From SAR202 cluster bacterium (lineage in GTDB: Bacteria; Chloroflexota; Dehalococcoidia; Lucifugimonadales; VGZY01), in assembly GCA_016872355.1 (NCBI GenBank), contig VGZY01000026.1, forward strand, positions 1 through 32,940: a stretch of 32,940 nucleotides of DNA, read 5' to 3'. The notes under the pieces were generated by a model. It was not told where the DNA came from and searched no databases. It saw only the letters and a program-made list of their open reading frames with translations. Position numbers and translations under genes: made by a program. Of the stretch, positions 2,331-32,517 are shown piece by piece (position 1 is the stretch's first letter; the number at the start of each line of letters is the position of its first letter).

Positions 2331-2408
2331 TTACAGCTAAAGTGTTGATATTGGGCGCTGAACACCCCAAAATAGCCTCGCAGTCAACGGAGAATGTCAG
2401 GAGCACGA

Positions 2409-3365
2409 ATGCAGTACCGCACTTTGGGGCGTAGTGGGATAAAGGTATCGCTGCTTGGGCTCGGGACCGGCGGGGAGCGCCGGCTCGGCCAGACGGAAGG
2501 ACTCTCGCAGGAGCAGCAAACGGCCTTCGTCCGAAAATCGCTCGATCTCGGAATCAACTTCTTCGACACATCTGAGGGCTACGGCCAGAGTGAGGCCATC
2601 CTGGGCGAGGCGCTGAAGGGCGTCCCACGTTCGTCCTACGTGCTCGCCACCAAGTGGCAGCACGACGGCAGGCAAGGCGCCGACCCACTCATGACGCGCG
2701 GCGCCCAGGGCATGGTGGACTCGCTTGAAACGAGCCTGAAACGACTTCGGACGGACCATGTGGAAGTCCTCATGTTCCACGGCATCCACCCGGGCACATA
2801 CAACACGATCTTCGAGCGGTTCCTCCCCACGATGCTTCGCCTCAAGGAGCAGGGCAAGGTCCGGCTCACCGGGTTCAGCGAGCGCTTCCCTGAAGACCCG
2901 GCGCATACTGCCGCCGCCATGGGCGTGAAGCAGCACCCGGCGCAATGAAATGTCATCGAGCTGAAGTACGGCATCCTCAATCAGACCGCCGTCGATGAGG
3001 TGCTGCCGCTGGCCGTAAAGCACGGCATCGGCATCGTCAATATGGCCGCCGTGCGCGTGAAGCTCCCCTCGCCGGCCGAGCTGGAGAAGCTCATCGCCGA
3101 GTGGAAGGCGAAGGTTTACATATCCGTAGGCAGCGTGCCGGACAAGGACCCGCTCGGCTGGCTGGTGAAAGGCGACGTGGACTCCGTCGTCAGCGCCGGA
3201 TACAAGTTTGCCGCAGACCATCCCGCCATCTCCACCGTCCTCACCGGCACATCCAACCCAGCCCATCTCGAGGCGAACGCGAAGGCCCTCGAGCATACTA
3301 CCCAGCCACCCGGGTACAAGCAGCGGCTCATCCGCCTCTTCGGCAAAATAAACGAATACGCCTGA
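2409..3365 (+). pseudogene. Aldo/keto reductase interrupted by an in-frame TGA
   Basis: The gene encodes an NADPH-dependent aldo/keto reductase fold of about 318 codons. The N-terminal half has the YRTLGRSG start, the FDTSEGYG segment (Asp and Tyr of the catalytic tetrad), ATKW (Lys) and MFHG (His). A TGA at 2946-2948 interrupts it, and the same frame then continues with NVIELKYGILNQ, which is normal family sequence. A tryptophan (TGG) is expected at the stop, so one G-to-A change explains it. The second half ends naturally at 3365. I placed the start at 2409 because GGAG lies 5 nt upstream; an in-frame ATG at 2394 is also possible. It is either a young pseudogene or a sequencing error. Without the second half the barrel would be incomplete. 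Confidence 0.85.
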
Positions 3366-3384
3366 TGGCGATTTATGACAGGGC

Positions 3385-3401
3385 TTGTCTAATATTGACA
3401 A
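3385..3401 (+). promoter_or_regulatory. Possible operator/promoter of the parDE pair
   Basis: Inverted arms TTGTC and GACAA flank an AT-rich centre. They overlap a perfect -35-like TTGACA (3395-3400) about 45 bases before the antitoxin start. A matching -10 is weak. Autoregulation by ParD-type antitoxins is known; this site as the operator is inference. Confidence 0.3.
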
Positions 3402-3443
3402 ATCCTGTTATCCGGCGCAAACTCAAGCATAGGAGGTCTGAAT

Positions 3444-3698
3444 ATGAACGTCTCACTCACTCCCGAGCTCGAGAAATATGTACGCGATAAGGTCGACTCC
3501 GGCAGCTACATCACCTCCAGCGAGGTAGTCCGCGAAGCCTTGCGCCTCCTGCAGGAGCGCGACCGCATCTACGAGTCCCGCCTGGCAGAGCTGCGCAGGG
3601 AGATAAAGAAGGGACTCAGCAGTCCGGACGCCGGCGAACTGGATTTCGAAGCTGTCAAGCGAGAAGGCCTCAAGAGACTTTCGGAGAACCGCGGTTAA
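3444..3698 (+). CDS. parD: ParD-type antitoxin (ribbon-helix-helix)
   Basis: This 84-residue protein opens with a beta-strand and helix typical of the ribbon-helix-helix fold (MNVSLTPELEKYV), then the family pattern GSYITSSEVVREALRLL, and a charged C-terminal half that would wrap the toxin. ParD antitoxins bind their own promoter as dimers and neutralise ParE. A strong ribosome site (AGGAGG, 6-7 nt before the ATG) supports the start. The stop is two bases before the toxin ATG, so the two are co-translated. The pair lies between a broken reductase gene and a truncated enolase gene, a region that looks recombined. Confidence 0.88.
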   Translation: MNVSLTPELEKYVRDKVDSGSYITSSEVVREALRLLQERDRIYESRLAELRREIKKGLSSPDAGELDFEAVKREGLKRLSENRG

Positions 3699-4928: not shown

Positions 4929-6092
4929 CTACTGCCGTGCCCGACCGATCTGCTCCGCATACCACTGCCTGCCGTACACCTCTTTCTTGTTGAACATGCG
5001 CCCCTTCTTCGGCGTCAACGTCAGGCTTCGGTCCAGGAGGGGGAATTTCACGGCGGTCATTCCCCGCCGCTCCGACTCTCTCAAGCCGATGGCTATCTCG
5101 AGCACCTTGCGGCCGTTGTCGCCGCTGGCGCGCGGCTCAATGCCCTGGTCCACCGAGTCGACGACCGATTGGACGGTATCCATGACACGGCTGCCTAGCT
5201 GCATCCACCCATGCTTATCGTACTGGTCCCGACCCATCGCAGGGTCGGAGAATAGCCCCTTCGCTTCCTCAAGGTCCGCAGGAACAACCCTGGCCGCGTT
5301 TGCTCCGCCCCTCGCCTTCCAGAGCCGGAAGCTCCGGCAGTCGGTGGCGAAAACCCCTCGGCTGCATAGCACTTCGATTTCGTACTGGGGCGCCTCCTTG
5401 TAGTGGATGTGCCCTTCGACTCCGTTGGCGAACCGGACAACTCCGGCCATGCCCTGATCGTCGTCGCTGAAAGCATCGAGGACCTGTTTCGTCTCCTCCG
5501 AGTCCTCGGCGGCCGCTCCCGTTACCCAACCGAAAATCCAGTCCACATCGGCGTCCTGGGCGAACATTCGCATGATGCTCAGAGGCTGGCAGCCCGTCCC
5601 AGAAATCTGGTCCGAGTGGTGATATACATTGATGATCTGGACATCTCCCAGTTCACCGGCGTCAATCAGGCGGCGGGCCTCCCAGAACTGGGACTGGTTT
5701 CGGAACATGTCCCCCGCGGCCAGGGGAATCCCGCGGTCCCTGCACATCTCCACCATCCGGTCCGCCAGCGCCAGGCTCGACGCCATCGGCTTCTCGCAGA
5801 GGATAGCCTTCACGCCGACTTCCGCGCAGCCGATGACCACTTCGGGGTTCACGCTCGTCGGCAATATCGTCGAGGCGATATCGATCTTTTCCTTCGCGAG
5901 CATCTCCCGGTAGCTCGAATAACCCGGAACGTTAAACCTCTTGCAGAAAAGCTCCAGGTTCTCCGGGTCCGTATCAGCCGCAGCGACGATCTGCGTCCTG
6001 GGATGAAGATCGAAAGCCCGCGCTTGCTGGGTCCCCTTCCTCCCGCACCCTATGGCCCCGACTCGGTACCTGGCGTCGGCTGTCTTGACCAA
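4929..6092 (-). CDS. Gfo/Idh/MocA-family NAD(P)-dependent oxidoreductase
   Basis: This 387-residue protein starts with a Rossmann segment (YRVGAIGCGRKG) and has the CEKPMA motif whose lysine and proline are characteristic of the glucose-fructose oxidoreductase/inositol dehydrogenase family. The second domain has the beta-sheet sequence GMAGVVRFANGVEGHIHY. Such enzymes oxidise or reduce sugars, inositols and related polyols. The frame stays open far upstream, but that extension is antisense to the DUF1800 gene. A TTG at 6092 has GGAGG six bases before it and yields MVKTADARYRVG, so I place the start there. Neighbouring sugar-acid genes suggest carbohydrate catabolism; substrate unknown. Confidence 0.87.
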   Translation of the reverse strand: MVKTADARYRVGAIGCGRKGTQQARAFDLHPRTQIVAAADTDPENLELFCKRFNVPGYSSYREMLAKEKIDIASTILPTSVNPEVVIGCAEVGVKAILCEKPMASSLALADRMVEMCRDRGIPLAAGDMFRNQSQFWEARRLIDAGELGDVQIINVYHHSDQISGTGCQPLSIMRMFAQDADVDWIFGWVTGAAAEDSEETKQVLDAFSDDDQGMAGVVRFANGVEGHIHYKEAPQYEIEVLCSRGVFATDCRSFRLWKARGGANAARVVPADLEEAKGLFSDPAMGRDQYDKHGWMQLGSRVMDTVQSVVDSVDQGIEPRASGDNGRKVLEIAIGLRESERRGMTAVKFPLLDRSLTLTPKKGRMFNKKEVYGRQWYAEQIGRARQ

Positions 6093-6183
6093 TCCGTGCC
6101 TCCCGCAGGAATGTCCGCCCCGTCCGCCATTGCTAACCGCCGCGATTATACCAATTACGGCACGCTGTGTGGCCGCCCCTCTC

Positions 6184-6212
6184 TTGACACGGACAATCCG
6201 CAGTGGTATCTG
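6184..6212 (+). promoter_or_regulatory. Candidate sigma-70 promoter for the DUF1800 gene
   Basis: A perfect -35 (TTGACA, 6184-6189), a 17-bp spacer and a weaker -10 (TATCTG, 6207-6212) lie in the divergent gap between the oxidoreductase and the DUF1800 gene, about 70 bases upstream of the latter. Confidence 0.4.
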
Positions 6213-6284
6213 TTCATCTTGTACCGATATTCGCTGGATATCGCCGCACTCCGGGGATATCCGGCACATGAAAGGCAACAAACT

Positions 6285-7676
6285 ATGGCGGATGCCGGAC
6301 TGGCCCTCTACGCCCACCTCATGCGACGCGCAGGCTTCGGCTATCGCATCGGCGACCTTGAAAAGATGGCGGAGAAGGGCTACGAGCAGTGCGTCGAGGA
6401 CCTCCTCCACCCGGAGCGCTTCCCGGACATCGAGGTGGACCTCCTGGAGCGGTACTACGGCACCGGCAACCTCGGCTGGTCGTACCAGTGGTGGCACCGC
6501 ATGATCAACTCCCCGCGCCATCTCCACGAGAAGATGACCCTCTTCTGGCACCACCTGTTCGCCACCGGCGACTCCAAGGCCAGCCACACCCCGTCCGCGC
6601 ACGGCCAGATAGACACCTTCCGCCGCGTCGCGCTGTCCGACTTCCGGACGCTGCTGACCGAGCTCTCGAAGGACCCTGCGATGATATTCTGGCTGGACAA
6701 TAACGAGAACCTCAAGGAAGAGCCGAACGAGAACTACGGCAGAGAGCTCCTGGAGCTCTTCTCAATGGGCGTCGGCAACTACACAGAGCAGGACGTCAAG
6801 GCCGCCGCGCAGGCGTTCACCGGCTGGACTCTCGCGACGCCTATCCCCGGCGCGGGCAGCCGCTACGGCGGCTACCCGTCCCGCTTCGTCTACCGCGACG
6901 AGGAGCACAACTACGGCGTCAAGACGTTCCTCGGCGAGACCGGCCGCTTCAACGGCGAGGACATCATCGATATCGTCTGCCGCCAGCCCGCCACATCGCG
7001 GTTCCTGGCCCGCCACCTGTACAGCTTCTTCGTGGAGGACGAGCCGCCCGTCTCCGCCTGGAACGAGATTCCCCCGAAGAACGTCCGGGCCATCGAGCAG
7101 CTCGCCGAGGTCTTCGCCGAGACGAACGGGGATATCAAGGCCGTCCTGAGGACGATCTTCAACTCGGAGTGGTTCAAGCAGGCGGAGTTCAAGCGCGTCA
7201 AGAGCCCGGTCGAGCTCGTCACCGGCGTCCTGAAGCTCGTCGGCACCTACCGCGGGCCGGACCCCGACTTCGCGGACTACTTCGGCCAGGCCGGCCACAT
7301 GGGCCAGAGTCTTCTGAACCCGCTCACCGTCGAGGGATGGCCCAACGGCACCGGCTGGATCGACGGCGGCACGCTGAACATGCGCGTCAACTTCGCCGTG
7401 AACGAGGTCTCGGACGCCTCCAAGCCCGGCATCCAGCAGATGATCGCGCGACTGGAGGCAGAAAGCCCAGTCCAGCCGGACGACTTCGTTTCGCGCTGCA
7501 TCGAGTATGTCGGCCCCGCGCCCATCCGCGGCGAGACCCGCCTAGGCCTCTTGAACGCCGCCATGCGCGACGGCCCCCTGGACTTCAAAGACGAGTCAAA
7601 GCGCAAATTCAACGAGGCCCTCGTCTCCCGCATGGTCCAGCTAGTCGTCTCAACAAGGGAATACCAGCTCTGCTGA
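6285..7676 (+). CDS. DUF1800 family protein
   Basis: This 463-residue protein matches the DUF1800 family: MRRAGFGYRIGDLEKMAEKGYE at the start, the diagnostic WWHRMINSPRHLHEKMTLFWHHLFATG block, NYGRELLELFSMGVGNYTEQDV, the AFTGW motif, and a C-terminal RHLYSFFVEDE region. The biochemical role is unknown; members often sit beside DUF1501 genes and are thought to be exported or envelope linked, but no DUF1501 gene follows here. I chose the ATG at 6285 because family similarity begins there and AAAGG lies upstream. The long open frame before it is antisense to the oxidoreductase. The stop at 7674-7676 overlaps the first base of a long inverted repeat. Confidence 0.88.
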   Translation: MADAGLALYAHLMRRAGFGYRIGDLEKMAEKGYEQCVEDLLHPERFPDIEVDLLERYYGTGNLGWSYQWWHRMINSPRHLHEKMTLFWHHLFATGDSKASHTPSAHGQIDTFRRVALSDFRTLLTELSKDPAMIFWLDNNENLKEEPNENYGRELLELFSMGVGNYTEQDVKAAAQAFTGWTLATPIPGAGSRYGGYPSRFVYRDEEHNYGVKTFLGETGRFNGEDIIDIVCRQPATSRFLARHLYSFFVEDEPPVSAWNEIPPKNVRAIEQLAEVFAETNGDIKAVLRTIFNSEWFKQAEFKRVKSPVELVTGVLKLVGTYRGPDPDFADYFGQAGHMGQSLLNPLTVEGWPNGTGWIDGGTLNMRVNFAVNEVSDASKPGIQQMIARLEAESPVQPDDFVSRCIEYVGPAPIRGETRLGLLNAAMRDGPLDFKDESKRKFNEALVSRMVQLVVSTREYQLC

Positions 7677-7789
7677 ATAGTGAATTGGGAATAGTGAATA
7701 GTGAATTGAACAGCCGGCTCGCCCCGGTTTGACAACGCGCTATCTGCTATTCTCCTAATTCACTATTCACTATTCTAAATTCACTATTC
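7675..7789. repeat. Nested inverted repeat built from AATAGTGAATT units
   Basis: Two perfect palindromic pairs are nested. The outer arms are 12 bp (GAATAGTGAATT, 7675-7686, with 7778-7789). The inner arms are 19 bp (7689-7707 with 7757-7775) and contain the same unit in tandem. Only a 2-by-2 mismatch separates them, so the transcript could form a 33-bp stem around a 49-nt loop. The left arm begins inside the DUF1800 stop codon, and the right arm ends 15 bases before the next ATG, just ahead of its GGAGGA ribosome site. Confidence 0.85.
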
Positions 7790-7804
7790 GTTCCGGAGGA
7801 ACAG

Positions 7805-8860
7805 ATGTCCCGCCCATACGCCCTGCTTCGCGCCGGTTACCCTTACTTCAGGACCATCGGCGAGTTCATGCGCATGCACTTCCCGGCGGACGTCGCCATC
7901 CACAAGGACGGCCGCGTCTTCTCGTTCCAGACGGGCAGCCGCTACTCCAAGGGCAAGTCCGGCTCCATCATGGTCACAGACATCGAGGACAAGAACTACG
8001 GCAGCTTCGCGTGGCGCTCGGACGGCACGCCTCTCCCCCACTCCTGGTTCCTCTGGCCCTGCCAGATGGTCTTCGACCTCAAGCAAGAGGTCCTCTTCTG
8101 CACGGACCAGGCAGACCCGCGCATCCAGTTGTTCCGCATAGACGATCACTACCCAGAGTACCTGGGCCGCTGGGGCGAGGGCGGCAGCGCCCCCGGCCAG
8201 ATGAAGAGCCCCGCCGGCATCGCCTGCGACATGGATAACAACATCTGGATCGTCGATGCCGGCAACCACCGCGTCCAGAAGTTCACACGCGACGGCAAGT
8301 TCCTCATGCAGTTCGGCGGATTCGGCACAGCCGAGGGCCAGTTCGACACCCCCTGGGGCATATACGTAGACGAGCTGGGCCAGGTGTACGTATCCGATTG
8401 GCGCAACGACCGCGTACAGGTCTTCAATATGGACGGCAGATTCCAGTGGCAGCTCGGCCGCCCCGGCGCCGGGAACGGCGAGATCAAGCGCCCCGCGGGC
8501 ATACATGTGGACACCGACGGCGATATATACGTAGCCGACTGGGGCAACAACCGCGTACAGCTCTTCACCCCGGACGGCCGCTACGTACAACAATTCCACG
8601 GAGACGCCACCCTCTCAAAGTCCCAGGTCGCCAGGATGTACCAGCGCTCGGGCAAGCAGAAGAGGATGAGGGAGGATGCGGACCTGGAGCAGGAGAAGTA
8701 CTTCACGAGGCCGCGCTCGGTCCGCGTGGACCATCGCGGGTACATGTTCGTGCCGGACTACGAGCACTACCGCATCCAGATATACAAGAAAGAGGCTTAC
8801 CCTCTGGATGAGTCGCAGATCCTCCCTCCGTTCAAGGTGCCGACGCTGAATGCGAATTGA
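7805..8860 (+). CDS. NHL-repeat beta-propeller protein
   Basis: This 351-residue protein carries several NHL blades. The clearest are near residues 135-280, each with the pattern P-x-G-I, then D-x-x-x-x-hydrophobic-(Y/W)-V-(A/S/D)-D, then N-(H/N/D)-R-V-Q-x-F, for example AGIHVDTDGDIYVADWGNNRVQ (blade starting near residue 227). A probable six-bladed propeller results. NHL proteins serve as binding scaffolds, and some are hydroxyglycine lyases; no catalytic assignment is possible here. No signal peptide is visible, so a cytoplasmic location is likely unless export is atypical. GGAGGA lies 5 bases before the ATG. The C-terminal part (SRPRSVRVDHRGYMFVPDYEHYRIQ-like) is another blade. Confidence 0.85.
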   Translation: MSRPYALLRAGYPYFRTIGEFMRMHFPADVAIHKDGRVFSFQTGSRYSKGKSGSIMVTDIEDKNYGSFAWRSDGTPLPHSWFLWPCQMVFDLKQEVLFCTDQADPRIQLFRIDDHYPEYLGRWGEGGSAPGQMKSPAGIACDMDNNIWIVDAGNHRVQKFTRDGKFLMQFGGFGTAEGQFDTPWGIYVDELGQVYVSDWRNDRVQVFNMDGRFQWQLGRPGAGNGEIKRPAGIHVDTDGDIYVADWGNNRVQLFTPDGRYVQQFHGDATLSKSQVARMYQRSGKQKRMREDADLEQEKYFTRPRSVRVDHRGYMFVPDYEHYRIQIYKKEAYPLDESQILPPFKVPTLNAN

Positions 8861-8868
8861 AGGTACGG

Positions 8869-8892
8869 CCCCGATTCGAGGACTCATCGGGG
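8869..8892 (+). terminator. Hairpin after the NHL gene, possible terminator
   Basis: CCCCGAT (8869-8875) pairs with ATCGGGG (8886-8892) around a 10-nt loop, nine bases after the NHL stop. There is no T-tract, so it may slow or protect the transcript rather than end it. Downstream to 8968 only GGTACGG-type short repeats are seen. Confidence 0.35.
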
Positions 8893-8968
8893 TTCAGAGC
8901 AAGGCACAGGGTACGGGGTACGGTAACAGCCGGGTAAAGGGTAGGGAGAAGAGGTACAGGCGCGGCGG

Positions 8969-9337
8969 CTATTTTGAGAGGACTTTGCCGGTGGATGAGC
9001 GCTTGCCGTGGGTGGAAGGCGTTTTAAGGTTGTTCTTGTCGGAGACGATGTTTGCCGCCTCCGTTCCGGCCGAGCCGAGGCGCAGGAGAGTGCCGAGGGC
9101 GATGTAGGCAATATCCGCGGCCTCTTTGCAGGCGTCCGGGATGTCCGCGCGGTTAAGGGCGCGTGCGTGCTCGCCCGTCTCCTCCGCCAGCAGCGCCAGC
9201 CTCTGCCGCAGCGCCTCCAGCGTGCCGTCCACGTCCGCCGTGTCCACCGATGGGATTTCGAACCTCTCGTGAAAGCGGTAAACGCTCTCGGCCATCCTGT
9301 TCATCGCGGCAAGGTACGGCTGCATCTCATCGGTCAT
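8969..9337 (-). CDS. MazG-like NTP pyrophosphohydrolase
   Basis: This 122-residue helical protein has the MazG/all-alpha NTP pyrophosphohydrolase signature: E52, E53 and E56 in LLAEETGEHARAL, then E72 and D75 in KEAADIAYIALG, spaced as in the EExxE...ExxD magnesium site. Such enzymes hydrolyse (d)NTPs to monophosphates and help clear unusual nucleotides. The C-terminal DKNNLKTPSTHGKRS is a plausible substrate-contacting tail. The ATG at 9337 lies within the last codons of the YihY-like gene (11-nt overlap), implying translational coupling. Upstream in-frame residues belong to that overlap and do not look like this family. Specificity is not readable. Confidence 0.72.
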   Translation of the reverse strand: MTDEMQPYLAAMNRMAESVYRFHERFEIPSVDTADVDGTLEALRQRLALLAEETGEHARALNRADIPDACKEAADIAYIALGTLLRLGSAGTEAANIVSDKNNLKTPSTHGKRSSTGKVLSK

Positions 9338-26388: not shown

Positions 26389-27321
26389 ATGGCCACCGCG
26401 AATATCAAAATAGGCTCTGCTTCGTGGGCGGACAAGTCGCTGCTCACGTCCGGCATGTACTACCCTTCGTGGTGCAAAACGGCCGAGGACAGGCTGCGCT
26501 TCTACTCCTCCGAGTTCCCAATGGTCGAGGTGGACAGCTCCTACTACGCCCTGCCCTCCAGCCGCAACTCCAGCCTTTGGGTTGAGAGGACGCCGGATGA
26601 CTTTGTATTCAACATCAAAGCCTTCCGCCTCTTCACCACGCACCCAACGCCGCCGGTCGCTCTGCCGAAGGACCTCCGCGAGACTATGCCGCCGGAGCTG
26701 GCTGCCAAGCGTAACGTGTACTACGCGGACGTACCCGCGGCGATGCGCGACCGAATGTGGGAGATGTACAGGGATGGGATCATGCCCCTCCAGTCGGCAG
26801 GCAAGCTGCGGGTTGTTGTGCTCCAGTTCCCCGCGTGGTTCATGCCGCGGAAGAGCAGCTTCGAACACATCGACGAGTGCCGGGAGCGGCTGTCCGGCTT
26901 CAAGACGGCGGTTGAGTTCCGCAACAAGTACTGGCTTAGCGACGAGAACCGGGAGTCCACGCTCTCATATCTGAGGCGAAACGGGATGTCATACATCTGC
27001 GTTGACGAGCCGCAGGGGATGAAGTCGTCCGTGCCGCCGATCGCAGACGTGACGGCGGACATTGGGATAGTCCGTTTCCACGGGCGCAACACGGAGATGT
27101 GGGAAGCCAAGGGGCTGACGGCGTCGCCTGAGCGCTTCGACTACTACTATTCGCGGCCGGAGCTTGAGGAGTGGGCGCCGAAGATTGAGTCGATGCGAAA
27201 AGACGCGGCCGAGGTGCACCTGGTCATGAACACCAATGCCCAGGACCAGGCAATAAAGAACGGGCGGTTGCTGGCGGAGATCATCGGCGAAGGGCTCAAG
27301 CCCGCCCCGACGCTTTTCTAG
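26389..27321 (+). CDS. DUF72 family protein (YecE-like)
   Basis: This 310-residue protein matches the DUF72 TIM-barrel family: IKIGSASWADKSLL at the start, FYSSEFPMVEVDSSYYALPS, FVFNIKAFRLFTTH, KLRVVVLQFPAWF, AVEFRNKYWL and a late YICVDEPQ. The biochemical role is unknown. The ATG at 26389 has AGGAG five bases upstream. Its TAG stop overlaps the TAG stop of the convergent permease gene within a shared CTAG. Confidence 0.88.
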   Translation: MATANIKIGSASWADKSLLTSGMYYPSWCKTAEDRLRFYSSEFPMVEVDSSYYALPSSRNSSLWVERTPDDFVFNIKAFRLFTTHPTPPVALPKDLRETMPPELAAKRNVYYADVPAAMRDRMWEMYRDGIMPLQSAGKLRVVVLQFPAWFMPRKSSFEHIDECRERLSGFKTAVEFRNKYWLSDENRESTLSYLRRNGMSYICVDEPQGMKSSVPPIADVTADIGIVRFHGRNTEMWEAKGLTASPERFDYYYSRPELEEWAPKIESMRKDAAEVHLVMNTNAQDQAIKNGRLLAEIIGEGLKPAPTLF

Positions 27322-28193
27322 CGCTGGGCAGAGCTCACGGTGGCGGATACCGCCTCTTCTGCCCCGCCGCGCAGCGCGCGGGTGCGGCGCACGCGGGCCA
27401 GGCCGGAGGACGCGCCTACAGTGACCAGGAGCACGACAACGGAAGTGAGCACCACCGCCCCGCCAGCCGCCAGGTCCGCGTAGAAGGCAATTATCAGCCC
27501 GGAAACCGAGCTGACAACCCCGATCAGCATCGCCAGGGCGATGGCTGACCGTAGCCCTTTCGCCAGCCGGATGCCGGCGATAACGGGTATCACCAGCATC
27601 GCCCCTACAAGCAGCACACCCACGACCCTCATGGAGAGGGTTATGGTCGCGCCCGTAAGTATCGCCAGCCCCAGGTTCACCGCGTTAACCGGCACGCCCG
27701 TGGTGATCGCAAGGTCGTTGTCGAAGGAAGTTTGCGCCAGCTCCGAATAGAAGATCACAACGAAGCCGATGATCAGGGCGCCGAGTGCCCCAACGAGCCA
27801 GAGGTCCGCCCAGTCAATCGTCAAAACGCTGCCGAAAAGGTAACTGAAAAGGTCCACGTTGAAGCCGCCGGCGAGGCTTATGATGACCACCGAGAGCGCT
27901 AGGGCGGTATAGAGCATAATGGCGAGGGCCGCGTCTCCCGGCATCATGCGCCGCGCCCGGAGCTGCTCTATTGTTACAGCCGCCACAGAGGTCGCTCCTA
28001 GCGCCGCAATGGGCGGAAAGGTCTTCAGAAGCAGCCCTACCGCGACGCCGGCCAGGGCAACATGGGAAAGGCTGTCCGCGATCATCGAGAGCCTGCGCAG
28101 GACAAGGAAGATGCCGATGGCGGGCGCCATCGCCCCGACGATTGCGCCGGCAATGAGCGCGCGGACCATGAAGTCGTACTGAAGTATCTCCAT
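27318..28193 (-). CDS. znuB: Zinc/manganese ABC transporter permease (ZnuB-like)
   Basis: This 291-residue protein has about eight hydrophobic segments and family 3 metal permease motifs: FMVRALIAGAIVGAMAPAIGIFLVLRRLSMIADSLSHVALAGVAVG, GFNVDLFSYLFGSVLTI, and RVVGVLLVGAMLVIPVIAG. Family members carry Zn, Mn or Fe across the inner membrane. The zinc-type regulator and binding protein in the same operon favour zinc. The ATG at 28193 (MEILQYDFM) is the family-like start; upstream in-frame sequence is the ATPase gene in another frame. It follows the ATPase gene by four bases. Confidence 0.9.
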   Translation of the reverse strand: MEILQYDFMVRALIAGAIVGAMAPAIGIFLVLRRLSMIADSLSHVALAGVAVGLLLKTFPPIAALGATSVAAVTIEQLRARRMMPGDAALAIMLYTALALSVVIISLAGGFNVDLFSYLFGSVLTIDWADLWLVGALGALIIGFVVIFYSELAQTSFDNDLAITTGVPVNAVNLGLAILTGATITLSMRVVGVLLVGAMLVIPVIAGIRLAKGLRSAIALAMLIGVVSSVSGLIIAFYADLAAGGAVVLTSVVVLLVTVGASSGLARVRRTRALRGGAEEAVSATVSSAQR

Positions 28194-28197
28194 CTGG

Positions 28198-28980
28198 CTA
28201 CCTGTGCTCGTGCAGCGCGTCGTGCACAAGGACGTCCGGCGAGAAGCCGTAGAGCTTCCCAAGCTCTTTCTGCGTCAGTGCGTGCGTGTCCCCGTGGAAG
28301 ACGATGGTGCGGTTAATGCAGGCTACGGTGGTGGCCTCGCGCATCACTGCCCCGATGTCGTGTGAGACCATGACGATGCTCATTCCCTTGTCCCGGTTGA
28401 GCCGCCGAAGGAGGGCGTAGAAGCGCTCCTGCCCGGCGGCGTCTATGCCGGCCACGGGCTCGTCGAGCACAAGGATCTCAGGGTCCCGGACGAGGGCACG
28501 GGCAAAGAGCACGCGCTGCTGCTGGCCGACCGACAGGGACGATATGCGGTGGCTGCGGATCGCGGTCAGCCCGGCCGTCTCAAGGGCCTCAGTGACGGTT
28601 GGGCCACCAGGCCTCCTGAAGATTCCCATGGGATCAAAGCCCCTGTAGAGCCCCTGCGAGACGATCTCTTCAACCGCGGACGGGAACTGGGAGCGGAGGC
28701 TGTCTACCTTCTGCGGAACGTACCCTACCCTGCCCACGGCCCGGAGCTTGCTGGGCGGCGAGCCGAACAGCTCCACGCTCCCGCACTGGGGGGCGACAAG
28801 ACCAAGGGCCAGCTTCAGCAGCGTGGACTTCCCGCTGCCGTTTGGGCCGAGCACGGCCATGAACTCCCCGCGCTGCACCGTGAATGAGACGTCTTCCACC
28901 ACCGGCACGGCCCCGTAGCCGTACCAGACGCCATTCAGCTTCAGGCATGGTCCCGAAAATCCGTTGCTCAGGTTGAACAC
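28198..28980 (-). CDS. znuC: Zinc ABC transporter ATP-binding protein (ZnuC-like)
   Basis: This 260-residue ATPase has Walker A GPNGSGKST (residues 45-53), Q-loop VPQKVDS, signature LSVGQQQR, Walker B ILVLDEP and the switch His in VSHDIG. It pairs with the permease to power metal import. The start is a GTG that overlaps the binding-protein stop by 13 bases, so the genes are coupled. The VFHGDTHALTQKELGKLYG tail is typical of metal-type ABC ATPases. Confidence 0.92.
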   Translation of the reverse strand: MFNLSNGFSGPCLKLNGVWYGYGAVPVVEDVSFTVQRGEFMAVLGPNGSGKSTLLKLALGLVAPQCGSVELFGSPPSKLRAVGRVGYVPQKVDSLRSQFPSAVEEIVSQGLYRGFDPMGIFRRPGGPTVTEALETAGLTAIRSHRISSLSVGQQQRVLFARALVRDPEILVLDEPVAGIDAAGQERFYALLRRLNRDKGMSIVMVSHDIGAVMREATTVACINRTIVFHGDTHALTQKELGKLYGFSPDVLVHDALHEHR

Positions 28981-31244
28981 CCCAGGGCCTGTTTCAGGGA
29001 AGTCAGATTCTTGTCCATAAGCGTGAAATATGTCTCTCCGCTCCGGGATTCATCAAGTGTAACACTTTCGATGGGGTGCAGCGGGAGCAGGGTGGCATTG
29101 ACTTCCTTTGCGACGGTCTGCGCCAGCCGCTGGCTGAGTATCGGCTCTACAAGTACGTATTGTATGCCGGCCTTCTTTATGCGGCTGGAGAGGTCCGCCA
29201 GGTCTCTGGGGGACGGCTCCGCCTCCGGCGAAAGGCCGGAAACGGCCATCTGCTCAAAGCCATAACGGCGGGCCATGTACCCGAATGCCTCATGGGAAGT
29301 GGCCACCTGCTTCTTGGAACACGTGGCAAGGCCTGTCTGGAACCGGGAGTCCAGCGCGTTCAGGTCAGCGATTAGCAAATCGGCGTTGTCGGTATATGCC
29401 GCCGCACTTGCGGGGTTTCGCGCGATCAACGCGTCCCTGATGACCTTGACCAGCTCAATAGCCTTCAATGGGTCAAGCCAAACGTGTGGGTCGAGCGAAC
29501 CGTGGCCGTGCCCGTCCGCATCCAGTTCCGGGCCACTGACCTGCTCGCTGTTCTCGATCACCGGACCCAGCGGGGCGTTCCACCCGAATATTGCGATTGC
29601 GGACGGGTTGCCGGCAACTTTGAAAGTCCTCTCGATCTCCATTTCCTCCAGGTGCACTTCAATTATTTCGCCGGTATCCGGAATGGTAATGTACGCGACT
29701 CCATGGCCGGCGACCATGCTGGGAAGCGCTCCGGATCCGAAGCGCTCAAACGGGCCAGTGACGTCCAACTCACCTACGAGCGTCCATGTTGCGAGATCAA
29801 GAACACGCAGCACGCCGTCCTTGGTCAGAACGACGACTTGATCGCCCTCAGAATGTTCGAAGTCGAAGCTCTGGTAGTTGGCAGGGAGAGTGTAGATATC
29901 TCTCTGGTTGATGGAGTCTGCGGCTGGATCGATTCGCACCAAGGCGTTGTAATTGTGGAAAACCCCATACTGGCCTACAGCAAAAGACTGATCGTGATGG
30001 GCCTTAATTACGCTTGTTCTGAAGTTGTCAGGGTACGAAATCTTCTTGGATGAAAAGAATCCAGTAGCCGGGTTCTGAGTCAAGACCAGCACTCCGCCGT
30101 CTCCGGTGCCATCGATGTTCTTCTGGAAACAGCCGAACAGGAAGCTATCGCCAACAACGGCCTCTCCATGCATACCGAGGCACCGTTTCTGCGGGTCGGC
30201 TTTGTCATTGAATGTCTGGATCGTGTTCCCCTGTTGGTCAACTATCTTGAAGCCGCTGGCCAGCGTTCCGAACTCGCGAGTCGGATCTGGGTCCGAGATC
30301 AACAGGAGACTGCGGGCCGCAGGTACTGAGACGCCGTGATTTGCCTCCGTGGTCAGGACGAAAGGAGAAACGCCGGAGTCGAAAACGGCGCGTTCAGGGA
30401 GAATAAGGTTCTTGCTGCTCACGCCCTCGTCGAAGTTGCCGTCGAAGTGGACGGTTACGTAGCCGTTGTGTGATACAAAGTGAACCGGGTTTTTGCTGCC
30501 ATATGCTGCATCACTCAGAGAGAACGGCAGAATGGAAGGCTCGCCCTTATAAGCGTCTATGTGGTCTCCATGGTCGTCCGCCCACATGCCAGAGTCAATG
30601 AAATTTACCTTTCCGGCGGCGGTTTGGACGGCGGCGGCGATTCTTCCGCTTTCGGTGACGTAAAGGCTAGACTTGCCTTCCACCTGGAATGTGGCAACAA
30701 TCTCGCCGGACTCCAGATCAACTACTTGGAGCAGGCCTGTTGCGCCGTCGGCGACAATAATCCTGGGCTGCGGCTCGTCACCGTGTCCATGCTCATCATC
30801 GAACTGTTCCGCAATGTCGTGTGCAGCCTCTACAAGGGTAACGGAGGCCGGCAGGTTGGCAACGGCGCGGTCTATCCACGGCTCAAAGCCCGCGCCGTTG
30901 TATACCATGATGTCCGAGTTGGCGAGCGTCCTGATATCGCCCGGAGTCGGTTCGAAGTCGTGCGCATCTACGCCGGGCTTGACGATGTTCGTCACGTTAG
31001 CAGTGTCCCCGGCTATGCGCCTGGTGAAGTATTCCAGCGGGAATAATGTTGTGGCTATGTCCAGCTTCTCTGCCTGGGCAGTGGGCGACGTGCCGGACGG
31101 CGTCGGCGTCTGGGCGCCGGAAGCGGGCGCATCATCCTTGCCGCATGCGACTGCAAGCACGGCTACGCCCAGGATCACAGCCACGAAGCGCGCAAAGCGG
31201 CGCTTGAAAATCGTCGGTTTTGTGATACTCAGTCTCATATTCAC
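28968..31244 (-). CDS. znuA: Zinc-binding ABC substrate protein with an internal AztD-like beta-propeller
   Basis: The 758-residue lipoprotein (Cys34 in LAVACG, Thr/Pro linker to about 58) has a split cluster 9 metal-binding fold. The first lobe runs to about 147 and holds H95 in the KPGVDAHDFEPTP motif. The second lobe runs from about 580 and holds H587 (DPHVWLDP), H651 (SHEAFGY) and a late Asp (D731). Between them, 160-560 are a beta-propeller like the zinc chaperone AztD, with DDHGDH (223-228) and scattered His. Its flanks, DDEHGHGDE and DGHGHG, are the two halves of the His-rich loop of ZnuA/AztC proteins, so the propeller is inserted inside that loop. A 15-bp operator overlaps codons 3-7. 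The start is GTG (31244) with AGGGAG upstream; ATG 31238 is the alternative. ZnuA alone is near 300 residues. Confidence 0.9.
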   Translation of the reverse strand: MNMRLSITKPTIFKRRFARFVAVILGVAVLAVACGKDDAPASGAQTPTPSGTSPTAQAEKLDIATTLFPLEYFTRRIAGDTANVTNIVKPGVDAHDFEPTPGDIRTLANSDIMVYNGAGFEPWIDRAVANLPASVTLVEAAHDIAEQFDDEHGHGDEPQPRIIVADGATGLLQVVDLESGEIVATFQVEGKSSLYVTESGRIAAAVQTAAGKVNFIDSGMWADDHGDHIDAYKGEPSILPFSLSDAAYGSKNPVHFVSHNGYVTVHFDGNFDEGVSSKNLILPERAVFDSGVSPFVLTTEANHGVSVPAARSLLLISDPDPTREFGTLASGFKIVDQQGNTIQTFNDKADPQKRCLGMHGEAVVGDSFLFGCFQKNIDGTGDGGVLVLTQNPATGFFSSKKISYPDNFRTSVIKAHHDQSFAVGQYGVFHNYNALVRIDPAADSINQRDIYTLPANYQSFDFEHSEGDQVVVLTKDGVLRVLDLATWTLVGELDVTGPFERFGSGALPSMVAGHGVAYITIPDTGEIIEVHLEEMEIERTFKVAGNPSAIAIFGWNAPLGPVIENSEQVSGPELDADGHGHGSLDPHVWLDPLKAIELVKVIRDALIARNPASAAAYTDNADLLIADLNALDSRFQTGLATCSKKQVATSHEAFGYMARRYGFEQMAVSGLSPEAEPSPRDLADLSSRIKKAGIQYVLVEPILSQRLAQTVAKEVNATLLPLHPIESVTLDESRSGETYFTLMDKNLTSLKQALGCST
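31223..31237 (-). promoter_or_regulatory. Zur/Fur-type operator at the znuA-like start
   Basis: On the minus strand TGAGACTGAGTATCA is a 7-1-7 inverted repeat with one mismatched pair per arm. It overlaps codons 3-7 of the binding-protein gene. The same 15 bases occur at the zur start. Confidence 0.8.
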
Positions 31245-31275: not shown

Positions 31276-31773
31276 TTATCGGCAAGTTGCGACGTGTTGA
31301 ATCGGTTGGGCCGCCCGAGCTGATGCGGATACGGCGAGGTGGTCTTTGCACAGGAACCGAGAGACCGTGGAGGCAACCTTCGACAGCCCTTCGTCGATAT
31401 TCCGCCGCATGTCCAATTCCGGCCCAGGGTCAACCACGACGGCGAGCCAACGGTCTCCGCGTCCGCCCAGCGCGATTCGGTAGTGCGCGTCTGTGGAAGT
31501 TTGGGACATTATCTGGTCCAAGACGGTTGCCCATGCCCTCGGCTTAACCTGCTTATATTGGACGTACGCTGCAAAGACGCCGTCCTCAACCCATTCCGCG
31601 CTCTCGGTGTGGCCGCCGCAAGAGCATAGAGTCTCAACCATCCCGGTGTGATTCATCGCCCAGACAAGGTCCCTGACCGGCGCGTCGAGCAGGCGATAAT
31701 CAATGAACCACGGGTGCATTATCTGAACGTCCGGGTCCGTTCGCAGCAAAACCGCTTCCTTGAACCACCACAT
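31276..31773 (-). CDS. Unknown 165-residue protein in the zinc operon
   Basis: No family is recognised. The sequence has DVQIMHPWFIDYRLLDAPVRDLVWAMNHTGMVETLCSCGGHTES near residues 15-58, with two cysteines and a histidine close together (C49, C51, H54), which could bind a metal, and a middle stretch AAYVQYKQVKPRAW and a C-terminal part with DPGPELDMRRNIDEGLSKV. It has no signal peptide and is probably cytoplasmic. It starts two bases after the stop of the small ribbon-like gene and ends 31 bases before the znuA-like start, so it is very probably part of the same transcript and zinc response. Confidence 0.75.
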   Translation of the reverse strand: MWWFKEAVLLRTDPDVQIMHPWFIDYRLLDAPVRDLVWAMNHTGMVETLCSCGGHTESAEWVEDGVFAAYVQYKQVKPRAWATVLDQIMSQTSTDAHYRIALGGRGDRWLAVVVDPGPELDMRRNIDEGLSKVASTVSRFLCKDHLAVSASARAAQPIQHVATCR

Positions 31774-31775
31774 AT

Positions 31776-31970
31776 CTACTTCTTGCCCGCCTGTCCGCCT
31801 TCCAGGAGATAGAACTCCTGCTTGCTGATGAATTTGAAGACCTTCTCGCCGTTTGCGTTTGCGGTGGCGGCGTAAGTGGTGCGTCCGCTCTTCTGCTTAA
31901 TGGCCCTGGCGATTACCAAGCTGTCCGGTATCTGAACCGATTTACGGGTCTTCAGGCTATAGAACTCCAT
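31776..31970 (-). CDS. Cysteine-free paralogue of a short zinc-ribbon protein
   Basis: This 64-residue protein (ATG 31970, GAGGAG eight or nine bases upstream) aligns without gaps in its second half to the short zinc-ribbon family I know as DUF5679. The family has YCVKC near the start and GTCPVCGTKMFKI near the end. Here the same places read FYSLKTRK and AATANANGEKVFKF, so all four cysteines are replaced by Ser, Thr, Ala and Asn while KSGR and VFKF are kept. Zinc-free copies of zinc proteins, as with ribosomal proteins, are a known zinc-starvation strategy. A Zur-type box lies 25 bases upstream. An in-frame ATG at 32021 is less likely. The comparison is from memory. Confidence 0.75.
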   Translation of the reverse strand: MEFYSLKTRKSVQIPDSLVIARAIKQKSGRTTYAATANANGEKVFKFISKQEFYLLEGGQAGKK

Positions 31971-31995
31971 AGAATCTTCTCCTCGTTGAAATACC

Positions 31996-32010
31996 TGATA
32001 CTGCGTCTCA
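31996..32010 (-). promoter_or_regulatory. Zur/Fur-type operator before the ribbon-like gene
   Basis: TGAGACGCAGTATCA on the minus strand matches the other two boxes at 13 of 15 bases. It lies in the 47-base gap between zur and the ribbon-like gene, just ahead of that gene's ribosome site. Confidence 0.7.
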
Positions 32011-32017
32011 CTAAAAG

Positions 32018-32488
32018 TCAATAAGCCAAGCTAACCGCAGTGGTCACGGTCACTAGTTCCCTTTTTTTCTTAAGGCACTGCTTGCAGGTGATGTAGAACT
32101 CGATACGGTGGCCGACGATCTCGCCCGAGATATCCTCGCCGATGGCACGGAGAAGGCGTTCGATTGTCACGTCGCGGAACTCGCCGACGGTGCCGCACTT
32201 CAGGCAGATGGTGTGGTGGTGGTGCTCGTACCGAGCGAGGGTATACTTCGGCGCGCCGTCCGGGAGGGCCAGCTTGCAGACTACGCCGGCCTCCAGGAGG
32301 AGCTTGATGGTGCGGTACACGGTGGCCCTGCCTACTCCGGGGATCTCGTGGTTGATCTCTTCCGCGGTGAAGCCCTCGTGCTTGCGCTCAAGGAGGTTAA
32401 TCACGCCGCGCCGAGGCATGGTGGCCCGATAGCCCTTGTCTTCAAGGACCGCAATGAGGTCGGGCTTGGTTGCATGCGTCGCAGACAT
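32018..32488 (-). CDS. zur: Fur-family metalloregulator, probably Zur
   Basis: This 156-residue protein has the Fur winged helix (GYRATMPRRGVINLLERKHEGFTAEEI, then GRATVYRTIKLLLEAGVV) and a dimer domain with the His-rich YEHHHHTICLKCGTVGEF and a second CKQCLKKK, giving two Cys pairs for the structural zinc. Fur proteins with zinc as co-repressor block import genes when zinc is plentiful. Its position at the head of a zinc importer operon with shared operators makes Zur the best reading; Fur or PerR cannot be excluded by sequence alone. I use the ATG at 32488, which directly abuts one operator. A TTG at 32503 would begin inside that operator. Confidence 0.9.
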   Translation of the reverse strand: MSATHATKPDLIAVLEDKGYRATMPRRGVINLLERKHEGFTAEEINHEIPGVGRATVYRTIKLLLEAGVVCKLALPDGAPKYTLARYEHHHHTICLKCGTVGEFRDVTIERLLRAIGEDISGEIVGHRIEFYITCKQCLKKKRELVTVTTAVSLAY

Positions 32489-32502
32489 GATACTCAGTCT
32501 CA
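32488..32502 (-). promoter_or_regulatory. Zur/Fur-type operator at the zur start
   Basis: The 15-bp palindrome TGAGACTGAGTATCA, identical to the copy at the znuA-like gene, ends at the zur ATG. It suggests that the regulator controls itself. Confidence 0.8.
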
Positions 32503-32517
32503 ATTCATGCTATTAGT

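Follow-up and report, generated by a model that had tools for sequence, protein, structure and literature searches.

In a 32,940-nucleotide stretch of DNA (hereafter, the window; contig VGZY01000026.1 of assembly GCA_016872355.1) from an uncultured Chloroflexota bacterium of the SAR202 cluster, we found a single gene in which a ZnuA-type substrate-binding protein, probably of a zinc ABC importer, carries an AztD-type zinc metallochaperone propeller, a protein that is normally separate, within the His-rich loop located between its two lobes. The donor and the receiver of a metal ion would, consequently, be part of a single chain, and intramolecular zinc hand-off is the most likely function of this arrangement, although this is inferred from the biochemistry of related proteins. 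Related bacteria appear to have evolved the same nesting more than once. In the open-access literature searched, we found no description of an AztD domain inside, or fused to, a receptor.

The gene occupies positions 28968-31244 on the minus strand and consists of an open frame of 758 codons that starts with a GTG at 31244. A sequence-only reading had proposed this domain order, the nesting site and the comparison with aztABCD systems, without naming the strand, and all three proposals are supported. The Pfam ZnuA profile (PF01297) matches the protein in two separated stretches (272.8 bits against a gathering score of 29, E 3.9e-81 for the whole protein), which are seen in a profile search of the genome as two places covering profile positions 1-96 and 75-263, both over the cut-off. 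The NCBIfam AztD profile (NF038015) matches residues 164-552 across profile positions 1-353 of 356 (E 4.5e-38). Against the PDB, residues 60-157 and 574-753 align to the two lobes of AdcA, leaving off and resuming at AdcA chain residues 102-105, its His-rich loop, while the AztD chains 6cmk and 6ck1 align over about residues 145-555 and 159-555, respectively. Chance is excluded by the E-values and by the presence of the same order in about 39 assemblies.

The protein starts with a signal peptide that contains a lipobox-like VLAVAC, followed by an Ala/Pro/Thr-rich linker (residues 1-57; 31074-31244, minus strand). Lobe 1 follows (residues 58-147; 30804-31073, minus strand), and then the N-side half of the His-rich loop (residues 148-158; 30771-30803, minus strand), which includes DDEHGHGDE at 149-157. 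The AztD-type propeller (residues 159-556; 29577-30770, minus strand) is followed by the C-side half of the loop (residues 557-583; 29496-29576, minus strand), with ADGHGHG at about 576-582, and by lobe 2 (residues 584-758; 28971-29495, minus strand), after which the protein ends. The protein is a member of the ZnuA family, but it fails the curated AztC and AztD cut-offs. The lobes score about equally against the MntC, AdcA and AztC models, all below cut-off (for AztC, NF040870, 169.8 bits against 350), and branch with un-nested ZnuA-type receptors. The propeller is a divergent AztD, with 130.9 bits against a curated cut-off of 400. The match to the two-domain AdcA model (NF033605) stops at profile position 322 of 517, and no ZinT domain is present.

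By alignment to Paracoccus AztD, site 2 of the propeller is His225, His228 and Asp230 (His99, His102 and Asp104 in AztD), site 1 is His255, His303 and His359 (His124, His167 and His218), and the disulphide cysteines are Cys355 and Cys372 (214 and 231). By contrast, the C-terminal site 2 ligand His408, which is found in 68% of AztD homologues (PMC6689063), has no counterpart, as the chain continues into the loop. The receptor ligands are His95 in lobe 1 and His587, His651 and Glu726 in lobe 2, although the assignment of the Glu rests on the alignment to AdcA. Across 44 nested propellers, the site 2 His/His/Asp are kept in 44, 43 and 44 cases, the site 1 ligands in 43, 42 and 41, and both cysteines in all. 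Two nested proteins (from loci L024 and L091) have lost most of site 1 (N/Q/Q and H/Q/Q, respectively) while keeping the equivalents of His99 and Asp104 of site 2. This agrees with the published finding that only site 2 gives zinc to AztC (PMC6689063), although L024 also has Asp in place of the second site 2 His.

Structure prediction also supports the domain assignment. An AlphaFold model built with a 16-row alignment has a mean pLDDT of 63, with the lobes mostly above 70 and the propeller mostly between 50 and 80, with a poor stretch at 407-467; in the N-terminal part, a helix at 14-30 is followed by a low-confidence region. Even though confidence in the propeller is only moderate, the predicted middle part matches AztD 6cmk_A with a Z of 29.2 (rmsd 3.5, 338 residues; Foldseek E 3e-24), and the split lobes match MntC, Lmb, YfeA and holo-AztC with Z about 28 over residues 57-756. 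A second nested protein (L007) gave a Z of 35.3 with AztD and 31.6 with holo-AztC. The linkers are under pLDDT 50 and pTM is 0.47 and 0.45, so the models do not resolve how the two domains sit together.

The genomic context is that of a metal importer. The genome (3.07 Mb, 97.6% complete) shows no other ZnuA and no other AztD-like domain. The cluster, which is all on the minus strand with overlapping or close ends, reads as a Fur-family regulator (Zur or Fur; 32018-32503), an 81-aa ORF, a 165-aa ORF, the nested gene, an ABC transporter ATPase of the AztA/ZnuC/MntA type (28198-28980) and an ABC-3 family permease of the AztB/ZnuB type (27318-28262, although its start codon is uncertain). A 7-1-7 palindrome of the Fur-box type, TGANACTNAGTNTCA, lies at the start of fur (32488-32502), upstream of the 81-aa ORF (31996-32010, with one mismatch) and over the first codons of the nested gene (31223-31237). 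Three are found in the window against 0.02 expected, and they are the only three in the whole genome at up to one mismatch. Perfect TGATACTnAGTATCA copies also lie at stand-alone aztD genes (L068, L070, L075 and L078) and at other nested genes (L071 and L091) of the same class, and copies with two mismatches are observed at L002, L079, L080, L086 and L094, with none as good in 100 shuffles of each region. By contrast, the nested genes of Caldilineaceae and of the family coded f20 lack it. Zinc-responsive control by the Fur-family protein is the simplest reading of these observations, but it is inferred.

Based on the above, we propose that the loop halves and the propeller bind Zn2+ from the surroundings at sites 1 and 2, that zinc moves from site 2, possibly through loop histidines, to the receptor site within the chain, and that the loaded receptor delivers zinc to the permease encoded downstream. 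Published work shows that the AztC loop and each of its three His are required for transfer, that zinc leaves AztD only from site 2, that this site lies on an extension made by the N- and C-terminal strands and a blade 2 hairpin, and that docking is slow (575-1330 M-1 s-1) and rate-limiting (PMC6689063, PMC7463823). Insertion of AztD by its termini into that loop would therefore hold the donor site near the mouth of the acceptor cleft and would turn a slow second-order docking step into a first-order one. If we assume an effective concentration of the tethered donor of around 1 mM, transfer would proceed at roughly 0.6-1.3 per second instead of about 0.01 per second at 10 uM free AztD, although this is a calculation and not a result. 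In the published docking model, the loop tip enters the propeller pore, while here the loop is split around the propeller, so the details must differ. We consider this mechanism more likely than not, although it has no binding or transfer data behind it and the metal is presumed to be zinc. Direct metal transfer between proteins is hard to study because the complexes are transient, and the geometry of AztC-AztD docking rests on a manually started docking model. A natural single-chain version, inserted at the loop that this model singles out, is evolutionary evidence for it, as well as a possible stable target for crystallography or cryo-EM with built-in 1:1 stoichiometry.

Other explanations were also considered. 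The main alternative, which we regard as possible but unlikely, is that the nested propeller is a tethered zinc buffer or scavenger that, with the His-rich linkers, raises local zinc near the receptor, with zinc reaching the receptor through solution rather than by direct hand-off from site 2. In agreement with this, site 1 is also well conserved and does not transfer to AztC in Paracoccus (PMC6689063), H/D/E-rich linkers are present on both sides in nearly all nested proteins, and the accessory ZinT domain and His-rich loop of AdcA only aid recruitment under zinc restriction (PMC7858048). However, a buffer would not need the propeller to sit in the transfer loop, yet the insertion is always there, and L024 and L091 have lost most of site 1 while keeping two of the site 2 ligands. 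It is much less likely that the propeller has become a structural or binding module (for surface attachment or partner docking) with no role in zinc handling. Although propellers are often binding platforms and the site 1 losses, together with the site 2 substitution in L024, could be read in this way, all mapped ligands are present in the window and in nearly all nested relatives, and the context is a metal importer with a Fur-type operator.

Similarly, cleavage of the flexible linkers after export, which would give a free AztD-like chaperone and a two-chain receptor and leave nesting only to ensure equal amounts, is very doubtful. Both linkers are predicted to be disordered, but they keep their H/D/E-rich composition while varying in length, which fits zinc binding better, and no protease site or precedent was looked for or found. 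Finally, an assembly or sequencing fusion of neighbouring aztC and aztD genes, which are indeed neighbours in other phyla, is rejected, as an end-to-end fusion would not nest one gene inside another and the same order occurs in about 39 assemblies, two of them chromosome-level, at under 30% identity to the window.

Several known systems resemble this protein in part. The AztABCD importers of Paracoccus denitrificans and Citrobacter koseri (PMC6689063, PMC7463823) share with it the propeller family, both zinc sites and the disulphide, a cluster A-I receptor with a His-bearing loop, and an ATPase, a permease and a Fur-family gene in the cluster, but there AztC and AztD are two proteins from two genes. 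AdcA of Streptococcus, the nearest fused receptor, also has a zinc receptor and a zinc accessory domain on one chain, with the His-rich loop at their interface, and its lobes are among the closest PDB matches. However, its accessory domain is the lipocalin-like ZinT, which is appended C-terminally by an 11-residue linker (PMC7858048). Un-nested ZnuA-type receptors with long H/D/E loops in Chloroflexota (e.g., L021, L022 and positions 2335-3597 of L005) have the same receptor fold and include the nearest relatives of the window's lobes (49% identity to L021), but their loop holds no propeller. Stand-alone AztD-like genes of the same class (L068, L070, L075, L078, L089 and L098) have propellers with the same ligands and, in many of them, the same operator-like box, but no receptor gene was recognised beside those inspected.

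The nesting is not a one-off but a recurrent architecture in Chloroflexota. Full-length nested genes were found in Caldilineaceae, Dehalococcoidia and several unnamed families of the same class and phylum, including the chromosome-level OX638325.1 (L002) and OY282376.1 (L005), and recognisable ATPase and permease genes follow in many loci. As other phyla were not searched as whole genomes and a single scan of genome contigs was seeded with the window protein, absence outside Chloroflexota is not shown. Stand-alone AztD-like genes occur in other members of the class, and two genomes (G546 and G580) carry one of each. In Paracoccus, Klebsiella, Phyllobacterium, Streptomyces, Thermus and Deinococcus plasmids, aztC and aztD are separate genes close together. 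None of 1494 matching plasmid records covers 80% of a nested query in one place, and one candidate, Deinococcus ficus, turned out to be an unannotated separate aztD next to the receptor gene.

A tree of the receptor lobes puts the window protein among un-nested ZnuA receptors (49% identity to genome G326, same order), a second nested group (family code f3) beside other un-nested receptors, and the remaining nested proteins elsewhere, with at least four label changes forced by supported branches. A single clade of nested receptors is rejected by AU tests (p-AU 1.5e-6; 1e-40 with reference AztC added), while window plus f3 alone is rejected more weakly (0.022). In the propeller tree, the window propeller sits in a supported set with 12 stand-alone AztD-like proteins, most from other phyla, while the f3 propellers sit inside the main Chloroflexota group, so lobes and propellers have different histories (p-AU 1.6e-65). 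The best reading is that there were at least two, probably three or more, insertions at the same loop. Nevertheless, the branches of the window are long and the groups were named after seeing the data, and a deep single origin followed by many losses and propeller swaps is not fully excluded. Repeated nesting would be a clear case of domain insertion favoured by function. In a broader reading, which we consider about as likely as not, a donor metallochaperone has been inserted repeatedly and independently into the acceptor's own transfer loop, so that metal hand-off is enforced by covalent topology, and this loop is a recurrent insertion site through which Chloroflexota swap zinc-handling modules (propeller, another domain, or plain His-rich repeats) in and out.

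A natural with-and-without pair exists in L005, where two neighbouring receptor genes are 85-86% identical on both sides, one with the propeller and one with only a 97-residue His/Asp/Glu loop. Direct DNA repeats coding for the His/Asp/Glu runs flank the insert there and in L018, which suggests, although it is an inference, recombination between repeats as a way in or out. By contrast, no such repeats flank the insert in the window.

Regarding the possible control of these genes, three Fur-box-type palindromes (TGANACTNAGTNTCA) were found in the window, at 31223-31237, 31996-32010 and 32488-32502, and these are the only ones in the genome at up to one mismatch. Perfect TGATACTnAGTATCA copies also precede stand-alone aztD and other nested genes in the class, so this may be a Zur operator of these Chloroflexota. 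In addition, two small ORFs are located on the minus strand between fur and the nested gene, at 31276-31773 and 31776-32021, neither of which has a Pfam or NCBIfam match. The 165-aa one contains CSCGGHTESAEW, and it is possible that both ORFs code for further zinc-responsive proteins.

In three other Chloroflexota loci (L047 661-2079, plus strand; L048 616-2067, plus strand; and L049 1501-3099, minus strand), ZnuA receptors carry a different insert in the loop that elsewhere holds the propeller, of about 145-157 residues and with no Pfam family over its cut-off. Thus, the loop seems to be a general insertion site. Additionally, in L005, a locus on a chromosome-level assembly, two neighbouring receptor genes (2335-3597 and 5986-8385) are 85-86% identical on both sides, although one is with and the other without the propeller. 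The nested proteins of L002 and L020 carry an extra Ala-rich, probably helical stretch of roughly 200 residues (L002 5281-5990 and L020 5290-5960; both approximate) between the signal peptide and lobe 1, which is possibly a stalk.

AztD-like genes were also observed in other arrangements. In L098, two tandem stand-alone AztD-like genes (6078-7577 and 7589-9178, minus strand) were found with no recognised receptor gene nearby. Streptomyces plasmids (L114 4776-6137 and L122 2824-4059) carry a third AztD-like gene, annotated as hypothetical, between aztB and aztC and, in L114, the site 1 His are all replaced by Arg, while the HGxH of site 2 remains.
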